Source: Wohlfahrtiimonas populi
Lineage (GTDB): Bacteria > Pseudomonadota > Gammaproteobacteria > Cardiobacteriales > Wohlfahrtiimonadaceae
Direction of reading: 5' to 3'
Assembly (NCBI RefSeq): GCF_002006795.1
Contig: NZ_MVDN01000005.1
Span: forward strand, 158,449-192,929
DNA: 34,481 nucleotides
In this document: positions 27,612-34,481 of the stretch, one piece after another
How positions within the stretch are numbered: position 1 is the stretch's first letter
How the letters are laid out: every line of letters starts with the position of its first letter
Notes under the pieces: generated by a model
What the model saw: the letters and a program-made list of their open reading frames with translations, nothing else
Told to the model about the DNA's origin: nothing
Database searches by the model: none
Program-made: the position numbers and the translations under genes

Positions 27612-28067
27612 ATGATTATGACAACACAAACAGAAAAAATGTATCGAACTTTAATAAAATTAACACATGCACAAGAAATTCATCGAGAGAAAAAGCGTGA
27701 AACTTTATTGAAGGATTTGGGCAATTACACATTAACGCAATTGCATATTTTGAGTTGTATTCAGCAACATGATGCTGTGAATAATAAAGTGCTCAGTGAT
27801 GCTTTAGCGTTAACAAAAGCAGCAGTTTCAAAGGCTGTGAATAAATTATTGAAGGATGAGTTAATCACAACATATCAAGTTGAGGATAACCAAAAGTCGA
27901 TTTTTTATCAGTTAACGAAAGAAGGTGAGCATATTGCAGATATTCATCATGTATTACATGAACAGGTCAAGGCGAATTATTTAAATTTTTTGGCAACGAT
28001 GGATGATGAAACATTGGCTAAAGCCCAGCTGTTCTTGGAAGCTTTAACAAATTACTTAGAAGAATAA
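27612..28067 (+). CDS. MarR family transcriptional regulator
   Basis: 151 residues with a MarR winged helix: [25 protein letters not shown], then LTKAAVSKAVNKLLKDELI (recognition helix) and the wing QVEDNQKSIFYQLTKEG. MarR proteins are dimeric repressors that let go of DNA on binding phenolic or drug-like ligands. A second ATG two codons downstream is equally possible. The operators in its promoter suggest autoregulation; the first operator is 8 bases from the -35 of the divergent CatB-like gene, which may be a co-target. The SnoaL-like gene follows by 20 bases. Confidence 0.88.
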   Translation: MIMTTQTEKMYRTLIKLTHAQEIHREKKRETLLKDLGNYTLTQLHILSCIQQHDAVNNKVLSDALALTKAAVSKAVNKLLKDELITTYQVEDNQKSIFYQLTKEGEHIADIHHVLHEQVKANYLNFLATMDDETLAKAQLFLEALTNYLEE

Positions 28068-28087
28068 TGAAAAAAGGAGATCAAAAC

Positions 28088-28477
28088 ATGCATAAATATC
28101 AGAAATTAGTGGCTGAATCATTTGAAGTATTATTCGATGCTGAAAAAACGGTGGATGATGTTAGACCTTTTTTCGTAAAGAATTATACACAATGGGTGGA
28201 TGGCAAAAGCTTGGATTATAATGGCTTTTTTCAGCATGTTGTCGCATTGAAAGAAGTGATTGCTACAGCTCATGTAGAATTCATTGAATTTATGGTGGCA
28301 GGCGATACAGCTGCGGATATTCATGATGTATTTGTGACTAAAAAGAATGGTGAAACATTGCATGTGCGAGTGATTGCATTTTTCACATTTGAAAATGATC
28401 AAATTGCTTCTGTGCGTGAAATGACACATCTATTGGAAGGTAATGAAAGCGATCACGATTTAGGTTCAAGAACCTAA
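28088..28477 (+). CDS. SnoaL/NTF2-like fold protein
   Basis: 129 residues from the ATG at 28088, chosen because AAGGAG lies nine bases upstream; an ATG at 28067 overlapping the MarR stop is less likely. The pattern YQKLVAESFEVLFDAEKTVDDVRPFFVKNYTQWVDGKSLDYNGFFQHV followed by HDVFVTKKNGETLHVRVIAFFTFENDQIASVREMTHLLEG is that of NTF2-like proteins, small cone-shaped domains used as isomerases, hydrolases or binding modules. The substrate is unknown. It is co-transcribed with the MarR gene and is probably its regulated partner, perhaps acting on or binding the MarR ligand. Confidence 0.72.
   Translation: MHKYQKLVAESFEVLFDAEKTVDDVRPFFVKNYTQWVDGKSLDYNGFFQHVVALKEVIATAHVEFIEFMVAGDTAADIHDVFVTKKNGETLHVRVIAFFTFENDQIASVREMTHLLEGNESDHDLGSRT
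28460..28477. repeat. Perfect inverted repeat at the end of the SnoaL-like gene
   Basis: TTAGGTTC, AA, GAACCTAA; the last three bases are the stop codon. It lies about 23 bases upstream of a TATAAT (28501-28506) that could be the pdxY -10, so it covers roughly the -35 area. No T run follows, so it is not a typical terminator. Confidence 0.5.
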
Positions 28478-28545: not shown

Positions 28546-29421
28546 GTGACAAACCAACCAAAACGCGTTTTAACTATCCAATCCCATGTTGCTTTTGGGC
28601 ATGTTGGCAACTCGGCAGCTGTATTTACATTACAAAGAATGGGCATTGAAACGATGCCAATTAATACTGTGCAATTCTCTAATCACAGTGGCTATGATGT
28701 TTTTTCAGGGCAAGTATTCACAGCGGAGCAGATTGCGGAAGTGATTCGTGGTTTACGAGAAAATCATTTCTTAGAAAAAGTGGATGCGGTTATTTCTGGT
28801 TACATTGGTAAAGTTGGCGTAGGGCAAGTGATTCATGATGTTGTGCGCGAAATCCGCAAACACAATCCTGATGCAATGTATGTTTGTGATCCTGTGATGG
28901 GCGATAAAGAAGATGGCGTTGGCTTTTTTGTGGATGAAACGATTCCACCTTTAATGAAAGAAGCATTAGAAAGCGCAACGATCATTACACCGAACTATTT
29001 TGAATTTGAAGTGTTGTGTGGCAAGTCTGTGCGGACTTTGGAAGATGCTTGTAGCGAAGCGCGCAAACTGATTGCAAACAATCACTATTTGAAAACAGTA
29101 TTGATCACAAGTTTTAGAGTGAATGATACTGATGATGAGTTGATGACGTTAGCGATTACAGCAGATGAAGCATGGAAAGTCACAACGCCACGTTGCCATT
29201 ATGTGCCAATGCCAAGCGGCACAGGTGACACATTTACAGCATTGTATTTAGCGCATACGTTAAATGGAGATAGCGTTGAAAAAGCGATCACATATACCAC
29301 ATCGACTTTATATGCTTTGGTGAAAGATACACCGAATGGTTCGCATGATTTATCTTTAGTGCGCGAACAAGCGCAGATCATTGAGCCAAAAGAATTGTTT
29401 AAAGCAGAGAGATTACTTTAA
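28546..29421 (+). CDS. pdxY: Pyridoxal kinase PdxY
   Basis: 291 residues from a GTG start. Ribokinase-fold vitamin kinase: RVLTIQSHVAFGHVGNSAAVF at the start, INTVQFSNHSGYDVFSG, YVCDPVMGDKEDGVGFFV, IITPNYFEFEVLCG and the anion-hole/catalytic GTGDTFTALYLA. It phosphorylates pyridoxal to pyridoxal 5'-phosphate in B6 salvage. The closest family by motif is PdxY rather than PdxK. PLP is the cofactor of PhnW and PatA encoded nearby, but salvage is general. Its 3' end overlaps the small convergent gene at 29413 by nine bases. Confidence 0.92.
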   Translation: MTNQPKRVLTIQSHVAFGHVGNSAAVFTLQRMGIETMPINTVQFSNHSGYDVFSGQVFTAEQIAEVIRGLRENHFLEKVDAVISGYIGKVGVGQVIHDVVREIRKHNPDAMYVCDPVMGDKEDGVGFFVDETIPPLMKEALESATIITPNYFEFEVLCGKSVRTLEDACSEARKLIANNHYLKTVLITSFRVNDTDDELMTLAITADEAWKVTTPRCHYVPMPSGTGDTFTALYLAHTLNGDSVEKAITYTTSTLYALVKDTPNGSHDLSLVREQAQIIEPKELFKAERLL

Positions 29422-29667
29422 TCCCATTGCTTGAAGGTGTTGAACTTGCGTTGCATAAAGCTCTGTTAGGTTATGTTCATCTTCTGCTGTAGGAATGAAA
29501 CCATATTCTTGATGCCAAGCATCTGCAATTTCAGGCAAAGCCAATAATGCTTGGATGTGCTGAGTTTGTTTTAAATTCATGATGTGTTCAAAGTGAACCA
29601 TAGATAATTTTAATTCAAATGCATGAAAAACGTTAGACAAAGTATCGATGTAATGCTGAGAAATCAT
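29413..29667 (-). CDS. Small protein resembling a free-standing PhnX cap domain
   Basis: 84 residues from the ATG at 29667, chosen for CAGGTG about nine bases upstream; the open frame runs further up to 29721 without a ribosome site. Residues 12 to 80 align without gaps with the helical cap of the neighbouring PhnX: HIQALLALPEIADAWHQEYG against HIKALLALPEVSSAWAKEHG, with PT and a similar helix after. No HAD core (no DxxGT nucleophile) is present. At the column of PhnX Lys54 the residue is Gln. DNA is partly identical to phnX as well. It could be a relic of partial duplication or a working small protein; the phnX terminator lies between them. Confidence 0.6.
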   Translation of the reverse strand: MISQHYIDTLSNVFHAFELKLSMVHFEHIMNLKQTQHIQALLALPEIADAWHQEYGFIPTAEDEHNLTELYATQVQHLQAMGLK

Positions 29668-29735
29668 ATTTAAACACCTGTAGTTAAAAGATGTACTTAA
29701 TATATGCTTGGAATATGACAAGAATATGACGCGAT

Positions 29736-29768
29736 AAAAAAAGCCAATATTATTTTCATAATATTGGC
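29736..29768 (-). terminator. Rho-independent terminator after phnX
   Basis: On the - strand GCCAATATTAT, loop GAAA, ATAATATTGGC, then seven T with one more after an A: an 11-pair perfect stem, 29 bases after the phnX stop. Confidence 0.9.
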
Positions 29769-29796
29769 GAAATAGATCATAAGCCAGTATTGTTAT

Positions 29797-30609
29797 TTAC
29801 GGTTTTTCGCCAGATTGAATGCGTTGTTCAATAGCGTTTATAATAGGTTCAAGATCAGCCACAGAATCAATGATGTAATGCGCGCCTGATTTTTTCATCG
29901 CTTCAGTTGCTTGTGCACGTAATTGATCTTGTTCTGTTTTTGGTAAAGCATTCCATTCTGCTTCTGTCATGCCAACTTCATTGCCACTCACAGTGACAGC
30001 AACTGTCCAAGTGCCTGAATTTAAACCTTCTGCAATACCAACAGCTGTATCATCTACTTTGATCACAGTATGTGGATGCCAAACACCTAAATTATTAAAG
30101 GTTTGAAACATCATGAATGGTGCAGGGCGACCCATTTCAAAATCAGCTGCGCACATTACGCTTTCAGGATCAATGCCATGAGGTTGTGTCAAGCGTAGAA
30201 CTTTTTCTGCAATTTCTCTGTTATAACCAGTAGTTGAGCCAATTTTTATATTACGTTCACGTAGTTTTTTGAATAACTCAACTGCGCCAGGAATAGGATC
30301 AGAATAATCATCAATGGCTGCTAAATTCATAGGAATGAAAACATCATAGAGCATTTGTACATCTAAATCTGTTGGTGCGCTACCATGTTCTTTTGCCCAT
30401 GCTGAGCTCACTTCAGGTAAAGCCAATAATGCTTTGATATGATCTAACTTTGCAGAGCCCATTGGACCACGCGCCTGTTCAATCGTTAAAGGTACATTGA
30501 ACTTTTCAAATAATTTCACAAATGCACCCATTGGTGCACATGAACCATGATCAACGATGGTTCCTGCCCAATCAAAGACGATGGCAGAAATTTTTTGATT
30601 ATTTTGCAT
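29797..30609 (-). CDS. phnX: Phosphonoacetaldehyde hydrolase (phosphonatase)
   Basis: 270-residue HAD-superfamily enzyme that splits phosphonoacetaldehyde to acetaldehyde and phosphate. Nucleophile D13 in VFDWAGTIVDHGSCAP; cap-domain Schiff-base lysine K54 in GPMGSAKLDHI; later GSTTGYNREI, PAPFMMFQ and VIKVDDTAVGIAEGLNSG complete the HAD motifs. Length is the family norm. AGGAG precedes the ATG; the gene is 17 bases after phnW. It performs the second step of 2-aminoethylphosphonate breakdown after PhnW. Confidence 0.95.
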   Translation of the reverse strand: MQNNQKISAIVFDWAGTIVDHGSCAPMGAFVKLFEKFNVPLTIEQARGPMGSAKLDHIKALLALPEVSSAWAKEHGSAPTDLDVQMLYDVFIPMNLAAIDDYSDPIPGAVELFKKLRERNIKIGSTTGYNREIAEKVLRLTQPHGIDPESVMCAADFEMGRPAPFMMFQTFNNLGVWHPHTVIKVDDTAVGIAEGLNSGTWTVAVTVSGNEVGMTEAEWNALPKTEQDQLRAQATEAMKKSGAHYIIDSVADLEPIINAIEQRIQSGEKP

Positions 30610-30626: not shown

Positions 30627-31730
30627 TTATTTAACAACAGCCATTTGTTCTAAAACGTATTTCATACTCGCAACCACTTGGCGCATCTCTTTGTGGTTGA
30701 TTGCACCAATGCAGCCCACGCGGAAAGTTTCGATTTCGGTCAATTTGCCTGGATATAAGATAAAGCCTTCCTCTTTCACTGCGTTATAGAAAGATTTGAA
30801 ATCATATTGGTCATATTTAGGCGCTAAGAATGTCACGATGATTGGTGTAATATTTTCTTCATCTAAAAAAGGTTCTAAGCCAATTTTTGCTAAACCACTC
30901 ACAAGAGTTTTACAGTTATCTTTATAGCGCGCCAATCTTGCAGGTTGCCCACCTTTTTCTTCAAATTGATCTAAAGCTTCTGCCAAGGCAGCCACAACAT
31001 GTGTTGGTGGAGTAAAGCGCCATTGACCAGTTTTTTCCATATATTGGTATTGATCATATAGATCTAAAGATAAGGATTGGCTGTTACCTTGCATGCTTTC
31101 CAAAATCGCTTTGCGAATGAAAATAAAGCCCATGCCTGGAACACTTTCCAAGCATTTGCCACTTGCAGAAATTAATGCATCAAATTGAATTTCTCTTGTA
31201 GAAATAGGCAGAGCGCCAAATGAACTCATGGCATCAATGATTAAGCCAACATTGAACTCTTTACAGATATCACTGATTTCTTTCAATGGATTCAAAACAC
31301 CAGCGCCAGTTTCACAATGAATTAAGCCAACATGTGTAATGGAAGCATCATTGATTAACGCTTTTTTCAATGCTTCAGGTGAAACAGGCTCTCTTTCATT
31401 GAATGATAACAATGTTGCTTTACGTCCCATTTTATTGGTGAGTGTTGCCATGCGCTTACAATAAGCACCATTGTCTAAGACTAATAAATGACCATTCGGT
31501 GGCAATACGCTGTTAATAGCGGCTTCCACAGAAAATGTTCCACTGCCTTGCATCGGCACGACAACATAATCATCATGACCATGAATGATGGAGAGTAATT
31601 GAGAGCGGATTCTTTTAGTGATTTGGTTAAAATCAGCATCCCATGAACCCCAATCTTTTAACATTGCTTTTTTTGTGCGCAGTGTTGTTGTTAATGGCCC
31701 TGGGGTTAATAAGATTTGGTCGCGATCCAT
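30627..31730 (-). CDS. phnW: 2-Aminoethylphosphonate:pyruvate aminotransferase
   Basis: 367-residue fold-type I (class V) PLP aminotransferase. It transfers the amino group of 2-aminoethylphosphonate to pyruvate, giving phosphonoacetaldehyde and alanine. Motifs: ILLTPGPLTTT at the start, QGSGTFSVEAAI (phosphate cup), VGLIIDAMSSFGALP and PLP lysine K192 in SASGKCLESVPGMGF. The ribosome site AGGAG overlaps the permease stop codon region, so coupling is likely. Length and motifs match PhnW, and the PhnX neighbour confirms the pathway. Confidence 0.95.
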   Translation of the reverse strand: MDRDQILLTPGPLTTTLRTKKAMLKDWGSWDADFNQITKRIRSQLLSIIHGHDDYVVVPMQGSGTFSVEAAINSVLPPNGHLLVLDNGAYCKRMATLTNKMGRKATLLSFNEREPVSPEALKKALINDASITHVGLIHCETGAGVLNPLKEISDICKEFNVGLIIDAMSSFGALPISTREIQFDALISASGKCLESVPGMGFIFIRKAILESMQGNSQSLSLDLYDQYQYMEKTGQWRFTPPTHVVAALAEALDQFEEKGGQPARLARYKDNCKTLVSGLAKIGLEPFLDEENITPIIVTFLAPKYDQYDFKSFYNAVKEEGFILYPGKLTEIETFRVGCIGAINHKEMRQVVASMKYVLEQMAVVK

Positions 31731-31738
31731 GCTAGCTC

Positions 31739-33469
31739 CTAGTGATTAGCCCAACGATGCGTTGAGCGTTTGATCCAAAGTTCAATAAAGTAATAAATAG
31801 AGATGACAACTAGAGAAACACCAGTGATCATTACAGCCATTGCTGTTGCACCACCAACATCTCCAGCATCATCTAAGTTCAAAATGGCAACGGCAGCGAG
31901 TTCTGTTTCAGGTGAATATAAGAAGATCACGGCTGAAATCGTTGTCATCGCATTGATGAAGAAGTAGCGAGAAATATCCAATAACGTTGGCAAGCTGATT
32001 GGCAATGTCACGCGCCACATTGTTTTGTAAAAAGGAACCTTGAGGGATTGAGACACAGCTTCAAATTCCCAATCGATGGATTTTAGGGTTGAAGTCATTG
32101 TCATGTGGCTTGTGGTGTAGAAATGCACCACAGTACATAGGATCAAGATCAACATTGAATGATAGAGGAAGTTGAAAGGATTGCTTGGGCTATTAAAGAA
32201 GAAGATATAACCTAAACCTAAAACTAATCCCGGAATTGCTACAGGCAATGTTGCCATTAAACGAATGGCTAATTTAATTTTGTTAAAGCCTTTGGTTTTT
32301 TCGAGCATATAGCCATTTAAGAATACTAATGCTGTGCCAATGACGGTTGTGCCAAGTGCTAATGTTAAGCTGTTTAATAACGTTTTACCTAAACCGCTGC
32401 CAAACAATGCTGATTCATAATTCAACAAACTGAGTTTCAAGTTATATGGCCAGAAACTGACGAATGATGCATAAACTGCCATCAATAACATTGCTAACAT
32501 TAAGCAGGAAATCACGATGACATAAGCATTCATCGCTAAATCAAATTTCATATTCTTTTTAGGTGAAAAACGAACAGAGCGAGCTGACAATGTTGAAATC
32601 TGCTTTTTACGCACATGATGTTCCACCGTAAATGTAAGTAGAGCAGGGATTAACAATAACAATGCAACAGCCGCGCCTTGTTGGAAATTTTGCTGGCCGA
32701 TGATCATACGGAATAAATCTGTGGCTAATACATCAAAGTTACCACCAACAATTTTCGGAATACCAAAATCTGTGATCACTAATGTGAAAGAAACCATGCC
32801 CGCAGAAACTAAGCCATATTTAACGCTTGGCAATGTAATCGTGATGAATTTACGGAATTTACTTGTGCCTAAAGTATCTGCTGCTTCATATAAACGCTGA
32901 TCCGCCAATGTTAATGCAGTGACTAAGATCATCAATACATGTGGAAATATGGCAAAGATTTCTGCCAAGATAATGCCAGGTGCGCCATAGATGGAGCTGA
33001 ATCCTAAAGCGTTCCAAAAGGCTTTAGCTGCACCTTGGTTGCCAAACCAATAGATGATCGAAATGGCTGATAACAATGATGGTGCTAATAAAGGCAACAG
33101 GGCGATTGAGCGATAAATGCCTTTGAATCGTAAATAGCTGCGAGTTAAAGCATAAGCAAATGTGAATGCTAGTGGAATCACGATCATCGTTACGACAATT
33201 GAAACCCAAATGCTGTTCCATAAGCTTCTGAGGATAGAAGGTGATTTCAAATATTCAAAGAGCGCAGAAATGCCTGTGTGTTCACTTAACGTATTATTAA
33301 CGAATAACTGGCTTAAGATTGCGCTCAATGGTGCTACTAAAAAGAGCACAAAAAAGATGAGAGATATGATTAAAACAGAACCAATGATGATCTTCTCAAT
33401 GGGCCAACTTTTGGATTTAGGCTGAATCATCTGTGTTGTAGATTTTGCCTGTAAGGTAGAACTAGACAT
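31739..33469 (-). CDS. Putative 2-aminoethylphosphonate ABC permease (two fused permease domains)
   Basis: 576 residues with about 12 membrane helices in two binding-protein-dependent permease halves; each half shows an EAA-type loop for contact with the ATPase (AADTLGTSKFRKFITITLPSVK near residue 200 and AVSQSLKVPFYKTMWRVTLPIS near residue 475). Fused double permeases of the iron(III)/AfuB type are known in PhnT/PhnU-like 2-aminoethylphosphonate importers, and here the gene lies between the ATPase and phnW. The periplasmic binding protein is not in the window and probably lies to the right. AAGGA precedes the ATG; the ATPase stop overlaps this site. Confidence 0.88.
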   Translation of the reverse strand: MSSSTLQAKSTTQMIQPKSKSWPIEKIIIGSVLIISLIFFVLFLVAPLSAILSQLFVNNTLSEHTGISALFEYLKSPSILRSLWNSIWVSIVVTMIVIPLAFTFAYALTRSYLRFKGIYRSIALLPLLAPSLLSAISIIYWFGNQGAAKAFWNALGFSSIYGAPGIILAEIFAIFPHVLMILVTALTLADQRLYEAADTLGTSKFRKFITITLPSVKYGLVSAGMVSFTLVITDFGIPKIVGGNFDVLATDLFRMIIGQQNFQQGAAVALLLLIPALLTFTVEHHVRKKQISTLSARSVRFSPKKNMKFDLAMNAYVIVISCLMLAMLLMAVYASFVSFWPYNLKLSLLNYESALFGSGLGKTLLNSLTLALGTTVIGTALVFLNGYMLEKTKGFNKIKLAIRLMATLPVAIPGLVLGLGYIFFFNSPSNPFNFLYHSMLILILCTVVHFYTTSHMTMTSTLKSIDWEFEAVSQSLKVPFYKTMWRVTLPISLPTLLDISRYFFINAMTTISAVIFLYSPETELAAVAILNLDDAGDVGGATAMAVMITGVSLVVISIYYFIELWIKRSTHRWANH

Positions 33470-33478
33470 ATTGGTTCC

Positions 33479-34481
33479 TTAAGATGCAAAAACATTGATG
33501 CGTTCCGGTCTGAAAGCGAAAGGTAAGGATTTACCTAGCTCAATTCCTAAGTCATACACTTGATTTAAGGAAAATTGTAAGCGGATGGATTGCTTTGCAA
33601 ACGTTGGTACTTCCAATTCTGCTAAACAAGTACCACCTAAAAATTCAATGTCTTTGATGATGCCAGTGAATTGTTTTGCTGAATCATTGTGATCAAATTC
33701 AACTTTACGATCTTCAGGGCGGAGATATAAGCGAACTTTTTCGCCTTTAGGATGAGAAGGAACATCTGGCGCATGAATGATTTCATCGCCACAACGATAG
33801 TAATGATCACCTTCTGATAAAGCATCTAGTTGATTAATTTTACCCACGAAGTCCGCCACAAATGGATTAGCAGGATGATGATAAACTTCCAATGGCGTGC
33901 CAACTTGTTCAATCACACCATGATTCATAATCACAACGCGATCAGCAATTGCCAATGCTTCTTCTTGATCGTGTGTGACCATAATGGTTGTGATGCCGAG
34001 TTGCTTTTGTAAACGGCACAATTCTTCGCGTAGATGAATGCGCACAGTTGCATCAAGTGCTGATAAAGGCTCATCCAATAATAATAGGTTGGGTGATGTT
34101 GCTAAAGCACGAGCCAATGCAACACGTTGCTGTTGCCCACCCGATAGTTGGCTTGGGTATTTCTTGCCGCTATCTGGTAATCCAATCAAATGTAACAATG
34201 CATTGATTTTTTGTTCAATCGCATCTTTCTGATTTTTTTGATTCACTAAACCATAAGCGATGTTATCGCTCACAGTGAGATTGGGGAAAAGAGCATAGGA
34301 TTGGAAAACAATCCCATAATCTCTTTTCGCAGGTGGCAAGTTGGAAATCTCTTGCCCTTTTTGAAAGATCTGGCCAGATGTCTGTTCTTCAAGTCCAGCA
34401 ATAATGCGCAGCAATGTTGTTTTACCACAACCAGAAGGGCCTAAAAAACAGATAAATTCACCAGATTCAATGGCTAAATTG
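33479..34481 (-). CDS. ABC transporter ATP-binding subunit, phosphonate (PhnT-like), N-terminus cut off
   Basis: The frame is open through the right edge, so the gene start is missing. Present are Walker [10 protein letters not shown] in the last 60 bases, Q-loop region [20 protein letters not shown], signature [15 protein letters not shown], Walker [13 protein letters not shown], switch VTHDQEEAL and a C-terminal TOBE domain with [12 protein letters not shown]. This is the CUT1/PotA-like importer ATPase class. Coupling to the fused permease and phnWX identifies the likely cargo as 2-aminoethylphosphonate. An internal TTG at 34414 is not the real start. Confidence 0.9.

Follow-up and report, generated by a model that had tools for sequence, protein, structure and literature searches.

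Downstream of phnX in Wohlfahrtiimonas populi lies a small open reading frame, here named capA, whose 84-residue product is homologous to the whole cap domain of phosphonoacetaldehyde hydrolase (PhnX) and to nothing else. The gene was studied in a stretch of 34,481 nucleotides, referred to as the window. On the minus strand of the window, the phn genes are followed by capA, and pdxY converges with it from the plus strand (Table 1). An earlier reading of the DNA letters (the sequence-only reading) had given the small gene its own ribosome site and a place past the phnX terminator, and both features are found, with a ribosome-site-like AGGTG before the ATG and an intrinsic terminator between the two genes. 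A longer reading of capA from a TTG start (to 29721) is unlikely because such an ORF would lie across the -10 of the capA promoter. Upstream of pdxY, genes for a MarR-type regulator and a SnoaL-like protein are paired (window 27612-28477).

Table 1. Features of the capA locus in window coordinates
Feature	Position	Strand	Evidence or remark
pdxY, pyridoxal kinase	28546-29421	plus	convergent with capA, 9-base overlap; syntenic anchor of capA in G000, G001 and G003
capA, 84-aa stand-alone PhnX-type cap domain	29413-29667, stop codon included	minus	TIGR01422 cap-only match, five-helix model; ORF 29416-29667, stop 29413-29415
AGGTG/CAGGTG ribosome-site-like sequence and ATG start of capA	29665-29680	minus	direct reading
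Proposed -10 of the capA promoter, TATATT	29699-29704	minus	last six bases of the promoter
Pho-box promoter of capA	29699-29730	minus	0 mismatches; 26.3 bits with a matrix holding no capA site
Intrinsic terminator after phnX	29736-29768	minus	11-pair stem and T run
phnX, full-length phosphonoacetaldehyde hydrolase, parent family of the cap	29797-30609	minus	TIGR01422 329 bits, cut-off 220
phnW, 2-aminoethylphosphonate-pyruvate transaminase	30627-31730	minus	family profile match
phnU2-type AEP transporter permease	31739-33469	minus	TIGR03262
phnT2-type AEP transporter ATPase, gene cut off by the end of the window	33479-34414	minus	TIGR03265 431.6 bits, below the cut-off of 457.7 in the piece scanned

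The match of CapA to the PhnX profile TIGR01422 is limited to profile positions 22-86 of 251 (E 2.6e-9, 36.7 bits), and the phnX of its own genome is matched at E 3.5e-7; given these two values, the likeness is not a matter of chance. The score lies below the curated cut-off of 220 bits, as do those of four cap-only relatives (20.2-34.1 bits), and a single-sequence search of PDB sequences gave a weaker match to PhnX (E 0.01). CapA aligns with the window PhnX without gaps at an offset of 20, with 21 of 65 core residues identical. Compared with PhnX (TIGR01422; PDB 1fez, 1swv, and 3iru), it has the whole cap domain in common, whereas the catalytic core, the DWAGT nucleophile motif, and the Schiff-base lysine are absent, K54 of PhnX being replaced by Q34. 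Because both the lysine and the core are lost, CapA is no phosphonatase. These results bear out the sequence-only reading, which had described a free-standing, catalytically empty paralogue of the PhnX cap, aligned without gaps and carrying Gln in place of Lys54. No Pfam family was found for CapA at E up to 1. A likeness to UgpB, the periplasmic glycerol-3-phosphate binding protein, was probably due to chance (E 0.018 by profile, 0.5-0.7 in PDB).

The same reading had reported identical DNA in the two genes, and the 16-mer AAAGCCAATAATGCTT does occur both in capA (29537-29552) and in phnX (30419-30434). It is somewhat longer than the two proteins alone predict, as 1.4% of 5000 simulations that recoded both proteins synonymously contained a run of at least 16 identical bases (P 0.014), and the same codon is used at 13 of 19 shared residues against 8.8 expected. 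As evidence for recent duplication, the 16-mer is weak; a small gene-conversion tract is a possible source. Recent duplication from the adjoining phnX was rejected, given that nucleotide identity over the core is 99/195 and that the five cap-only proteins group apart from PhnX, in a placement that is not firm (98/94).

These five proteins come from a comparison of six Wohlfahrtiimonas genomes, one per species, numbered G000 (that of the window) to G005. Cap-only genes occur in three of the six, namely one in G000 and two each in G001 and G003. In all three, capA is convergent with pdxY and overlaps its end, by 9 bases in G000 and by 27 bases each in G001 and G003. The second gene of G001 and G003, capB, lies ~8 kb and 16 kb from capA, respectively, and has no pdxY directly beside it. 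The gene after capB is presumably esterase-like, a name given by reading only, and had no match at E 1e-20 in the other four Wohlfahrtiimonas genomes. A small tree joined the five cap-only proteins in one group (98/94) attaching beside the Wohlfahrtiimonas PhnX caps; this placement, drawn from long branches and a short alignment, is not firm, and the window's own CapA sat on a long branch of 1.48 changes per site. The five proteins agree with PhnX in ten invariant columns (H, F, F, L, L, L, W, G, P, and T). The lysine of the PhnX active-site segment has been lost in all five; read back without gaps from the HI/RV position, the Schiff-base position holds Ser in the capA proteins of G001 and G003 and Phe in capB. 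Phosphate genes also stand beside pdxY in two outgroup genomes from another genus of the family (G007 and G008; loci L029 and L030), where pdxY is convergent with what we take, by reading only, to be a phoU-like gene next to a pstB-like gene.

The closest relative of the window genome, G002 (PdxY 96% identical), has phnX and pdxY and lacks capA; the DNA that would separate the phnX terminator from the end of pdxY is missing there. Since capA is present in G001 and G003, its absence in G002 is best explained by loss, and since a close relative lives without it, the gene is dispensable. The sequence-only reading had held that a frame broken or absent in sister strains would refute its interpretation, and this applies by half, as the frame is absent in G002.

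No cap-only gene was found outside Wohlfahrtiimonas in scans of the order, the class, and species contigs. Eight of 32 genomes of the order matched; only G000, G001, and G003 had cap-only frames, the other five having PhnX frames of 270-279 residues. The class search, run with a narrow profile, matched eight of 369 genomes, and the seven besides that of the window matched in frames of 280-356 residues. Contigs of 84,980 species were scanned with a pattern that reaches close relatives only; 88 stretches fitted it, of which four encode a relative, all in Wohlfahrtiimonas. On plasmids, there was no match for capA, and capB matched five places at 31-39% identity, one annotated as phnX and four without annotation. 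In viral contigs, a single locus (L050 4574-4627) showed an 18-residue likeness inside a 508-residue frame and was taken as chance; this frame holds PEIANAWQQQYGYTP, close to a cap motif, with no other likeness seen. Three proteins were searched against PHROGs, and the sole match was at E 0.11. In the open-licence literature, which does not prove absence from the wider literature, we found nothing joining Wohlfahrtiimonas and phosphonate and nothing on a stand-alone cap domain of the HAD superfamily.

A feature that the sequence-only reading did not contain is the Pho box between the phnX terminator and capA. Each of the three genomes with capA has a Pho box upstream of the gene, with a -10 at fixed spacing, and the pstS promoters read in five of the six genomes have the same layout. 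A pattern built from the pstS and capA sites, to which the phn sites were new, occurred without mismatch at 11 places in the six genomes, namely six pstS, two phn-operon, and three capA promoters; with up to two mismatches it gave 30 matches, against five for the reversed control. Ten genes from behind these places were compared with protein families: seven are PstS, PhnS2, UgpB, or HpnW, and three gave no family. Because this first pattern had seen capA, a second matrix was made without capA sites, from six pstS and three phn-operon sites. It scored the capA promoters at 26.3 (G000), 29.7 (G001), and 27.3 (G003), compared with a maximum of 15.4 in 3 Mb of random sequence from a first-order model, read on one strand. 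Apart from the capA and phn-operon sites, the top scores in six real stretches were 19.9, 15.9, and 13.3, the first two from the HpnW side of the phn operon. PhoB itself exceeded its family cut-off in five of the six genomes, the exception being G002, where it fell below. The capA promoter thus has the site that marks the PhoB regulon of the genus, and capA belongs to that regulon with high probability. As judged from the promoter, induction of capA by PhoB at phosphate starvation is very likely.

No Pho box was found at capB, where the score with the capA-free matrix was below zero, so PhoB control is not a trait of the whole cap-only family. Close to the gene, the leader of capB (L007 1229-1475 and its counterpart in L008) hardly differs between G001 and G003, and the dyad TTGACGGTCAA is part of what is conserved; this conserved leader may serve a regulator other than PhoB. 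In G000, G002, and G005, a gene for an HpnW-type FAD oxidoreductase (TIGR03364) is divergent to the phn operon with Pho-box-like sites between them. G004 keeps the HpnW-type gene with a Pho-box-like site (two mismatches) though phnX and phnW are absent; the TIGR03364 family test was run on this G004 copy only.

Taken as a whole, the explanation that we favor, by a modest margin of belief, is that CapA consists of a cap alone, has no catalytic activity, is induced by PhoB, and probably binds another protein. The first alternative is that the free cap joins PhnX itself and, upon induction of the phn operon, inhibits it or adjusts its activity. The position of capA directly after phnX in the window, the Pho box in common with the phn operon, and the attachment of the cap-only group beside the PhnX caps agree with such a modulator, and a CapA-PhnX interaction may occur in the window's own species. 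The distribution of the genes speaks against it. Full-length phnX is present in G000, G002, and G005, and in these genomes phnW also exceeds its cut-off. Both genes are missing from G001 and G003, which keep capA and capB. Among the six genomes, too few for statistics and with G005 only 81% complete, capA accompanies phnX once (G000), stands alone twice (G001 and G003), is missing beside phnX twice (G002 and G005), and is absent together with phnX once (G004). As both cases are seen, capA and phnX can each exist without the other. Among the TIGR01422 matches in G001 and G003, none was above the cut-off and none looked like a PcrP-type core. The loss of the active-site-segment lysine from every cap-only protein also speaks against the modulator. 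The suggestion of the sequence-only reading that the cap is a regulator, chaperone, or inhibitor of the phosphonatase is therefore weakened by this distribution, and we consider the modulator unlikely.

The sequence-only reading had also offered a decaying duplication, and capA might be a relic of a duplicated phnX whose frame has, by chance, not yet closed in the window's species. Its long branch, its absence from G002, and its lack of catalytic residues would suit a relic. With 0.2 substitutions per site, a neutral frame of capA length stayed open in 753 of 5000 simulations. This number fell to 277, 156, and 103 at 0.4, 0.6, and 0.8 substitutions per site, respectively, in simulations that leave indels uncounted. 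Selection was measured between G001 and G003. For capA, dS was 0.78 and dN 0.16 (dN/dS 0.20), with 78 of 102 residues identical, whereas capB had 18 synonymous changes to one non-synonymous (dN/dS 0.011), with 97 of 98 residues identical; five neighboring genes gave dN/dS of 0.044-0.105. None of 2000 neutral simulations for either gene was as poor in amino-acid changes, a result that holds for capA minus its overlap with pdxY and for capB when the count begins at codon 17, which directly precedes an inner GTG, a candidate for the true start of the gene. The cap-only relatives are under purifying selection, as measured between G001 and G003; the window's own copy has no close orthologue among the six genomes. 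Together with the promoter kept in all three capA genomes, this selection does not support a decaying duplication, which we rate slightly below the PhnX modulator. Homology and the purifying selection on the relatives likewise reject a chance ORF. The cap-only genes are almost certainly a real gene family; selection maintains capA in some species, and the gene is open to loss.

The AlphaFold2 model of CapA has five helices with a mean pLDDT of 83.5 and a pTM of 0.70, and the model of capB is alike (mean pLDDT 83.1). The CapA model was built on only six aligned sequences and is not independent of homology because one of these six rows is the PhnX cap. With this model, the first eight Foldseek matches were PhnX chains at E values of 0.0025 to 0.09, none reaching 0.001, and the TM score for 1swv was 0.82 by query length. 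VIA placed PhnX chains in its first seven rows (Z 12.3-13.7), the best being Bacillus cereus PhnX 1swv, residues 20-102 (Z 13.7, rmsd 1.7, 83 residues), although helical bundles readily give high Z. Other HAD caps followed below the PhnX rows at Z of about 10; these C1 caps, of beta-phosphoglucomutase-type HADs, have a similar helical fold and about 5-14% identity. CapA is thus predicted to take the C1 helical cap fold, on a model from a shallow alignment that includes the PhnX cap.

HAD caps are normally tethered to their own core, and this counts against a further alternative, in which CapA docks in trans on the core of another HAD phosphatase and alters its substrate range. The complete cap fold of the predicted model would allow it, and caps are stated to set substrate specificity in HAD enzymes (PMC12632274); we regard it as improbable, somewhat more so than the relic. 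Least credible of all is that the Pho-box transcript, running convergently into pdxY, is the unit that matters and lowers pyridoxal kinase by antisense at phosphate starvation with the peptide secondary, for although the two genes overlap in all three genomes and a terminator scan of window 29300-29850 finds none between capA and pdxY, selection on the capA amino-acid sequence persists without the overlap and capB has no pdxY directly beside it.

Our preferred reading of CapA as a PhoB-induced binding protein has a counterpart in PcrP of Pseudomonas aeruginosa. According to PMC12632274, PcrP is a PhnX relative without catalysis that has PhoB bound at its promoter, is induced at low phosphate, has protein partners, for one of which docking on the cap is predicted, and is described as shifted from enzyme to protein binding. 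Like this PcrP/PA2803 subfamily (NF053741; PSPTO_2114, PDB 2oda), CapA is a non-catalytic PhnX relative, and its Pho box would likewise place it under PhoB. However, PcrP keeps the core with an abbreviated cap, and CapA is the reverse truncation, with the cap only; moreover, neither CapA nor its four cap-only relatives were listed for NF053741 (cut-off 240 bits) at E up to 1. Because the truncation is reversed and the family match is lacking, CapA is PcrP-like by analogy only and not a member.

We propose that capA arose early in the history of the Wohlfahrtiimonas group, when a copy of phnX lost all but its cap domain, with the single origin and the date both presumed. PhoB would then switch capA on from its own promoter at phosphate starvation, and CapA would fold as a five-helix C1 cap devoid of phosphonatase chemistry. 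It would serve in the phosphate-starvation response as a small binding module, such as an adaptor or inhibitor of some other protein, rather than as a PhnX subunit. CapA most likely works by binding because it is a small helical module, has a phosphate-starvation promoter, and outlives its parent enzyme; that it binds a protein in a manner unrelated to PhnX is about an even prospect.

Tentatively, capA and capB could form a family of HAD cap domains that stand free of a core, the first of its kind to be described, in which the lid has outlived the enzyme. Under PhoB, capA would have become a binding module of the phosphate-starvation response, and PcrP, with its retained core and shortened cap, would be its mirror image. 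If this is true, parts of the phosphonatase would have been recruited twice, in CapA and in PcrP, for non-catalytic roles at phosphate starvation. HAD caps are known as specificity lids of an enzyme core, and a lone cap that is under selection in relatives, has a Pho box, and occurs in genomes without the parent enzyme would clearly illustrate how, in nature, an enzyme domain can turn into an independent regulatory or binding protein.
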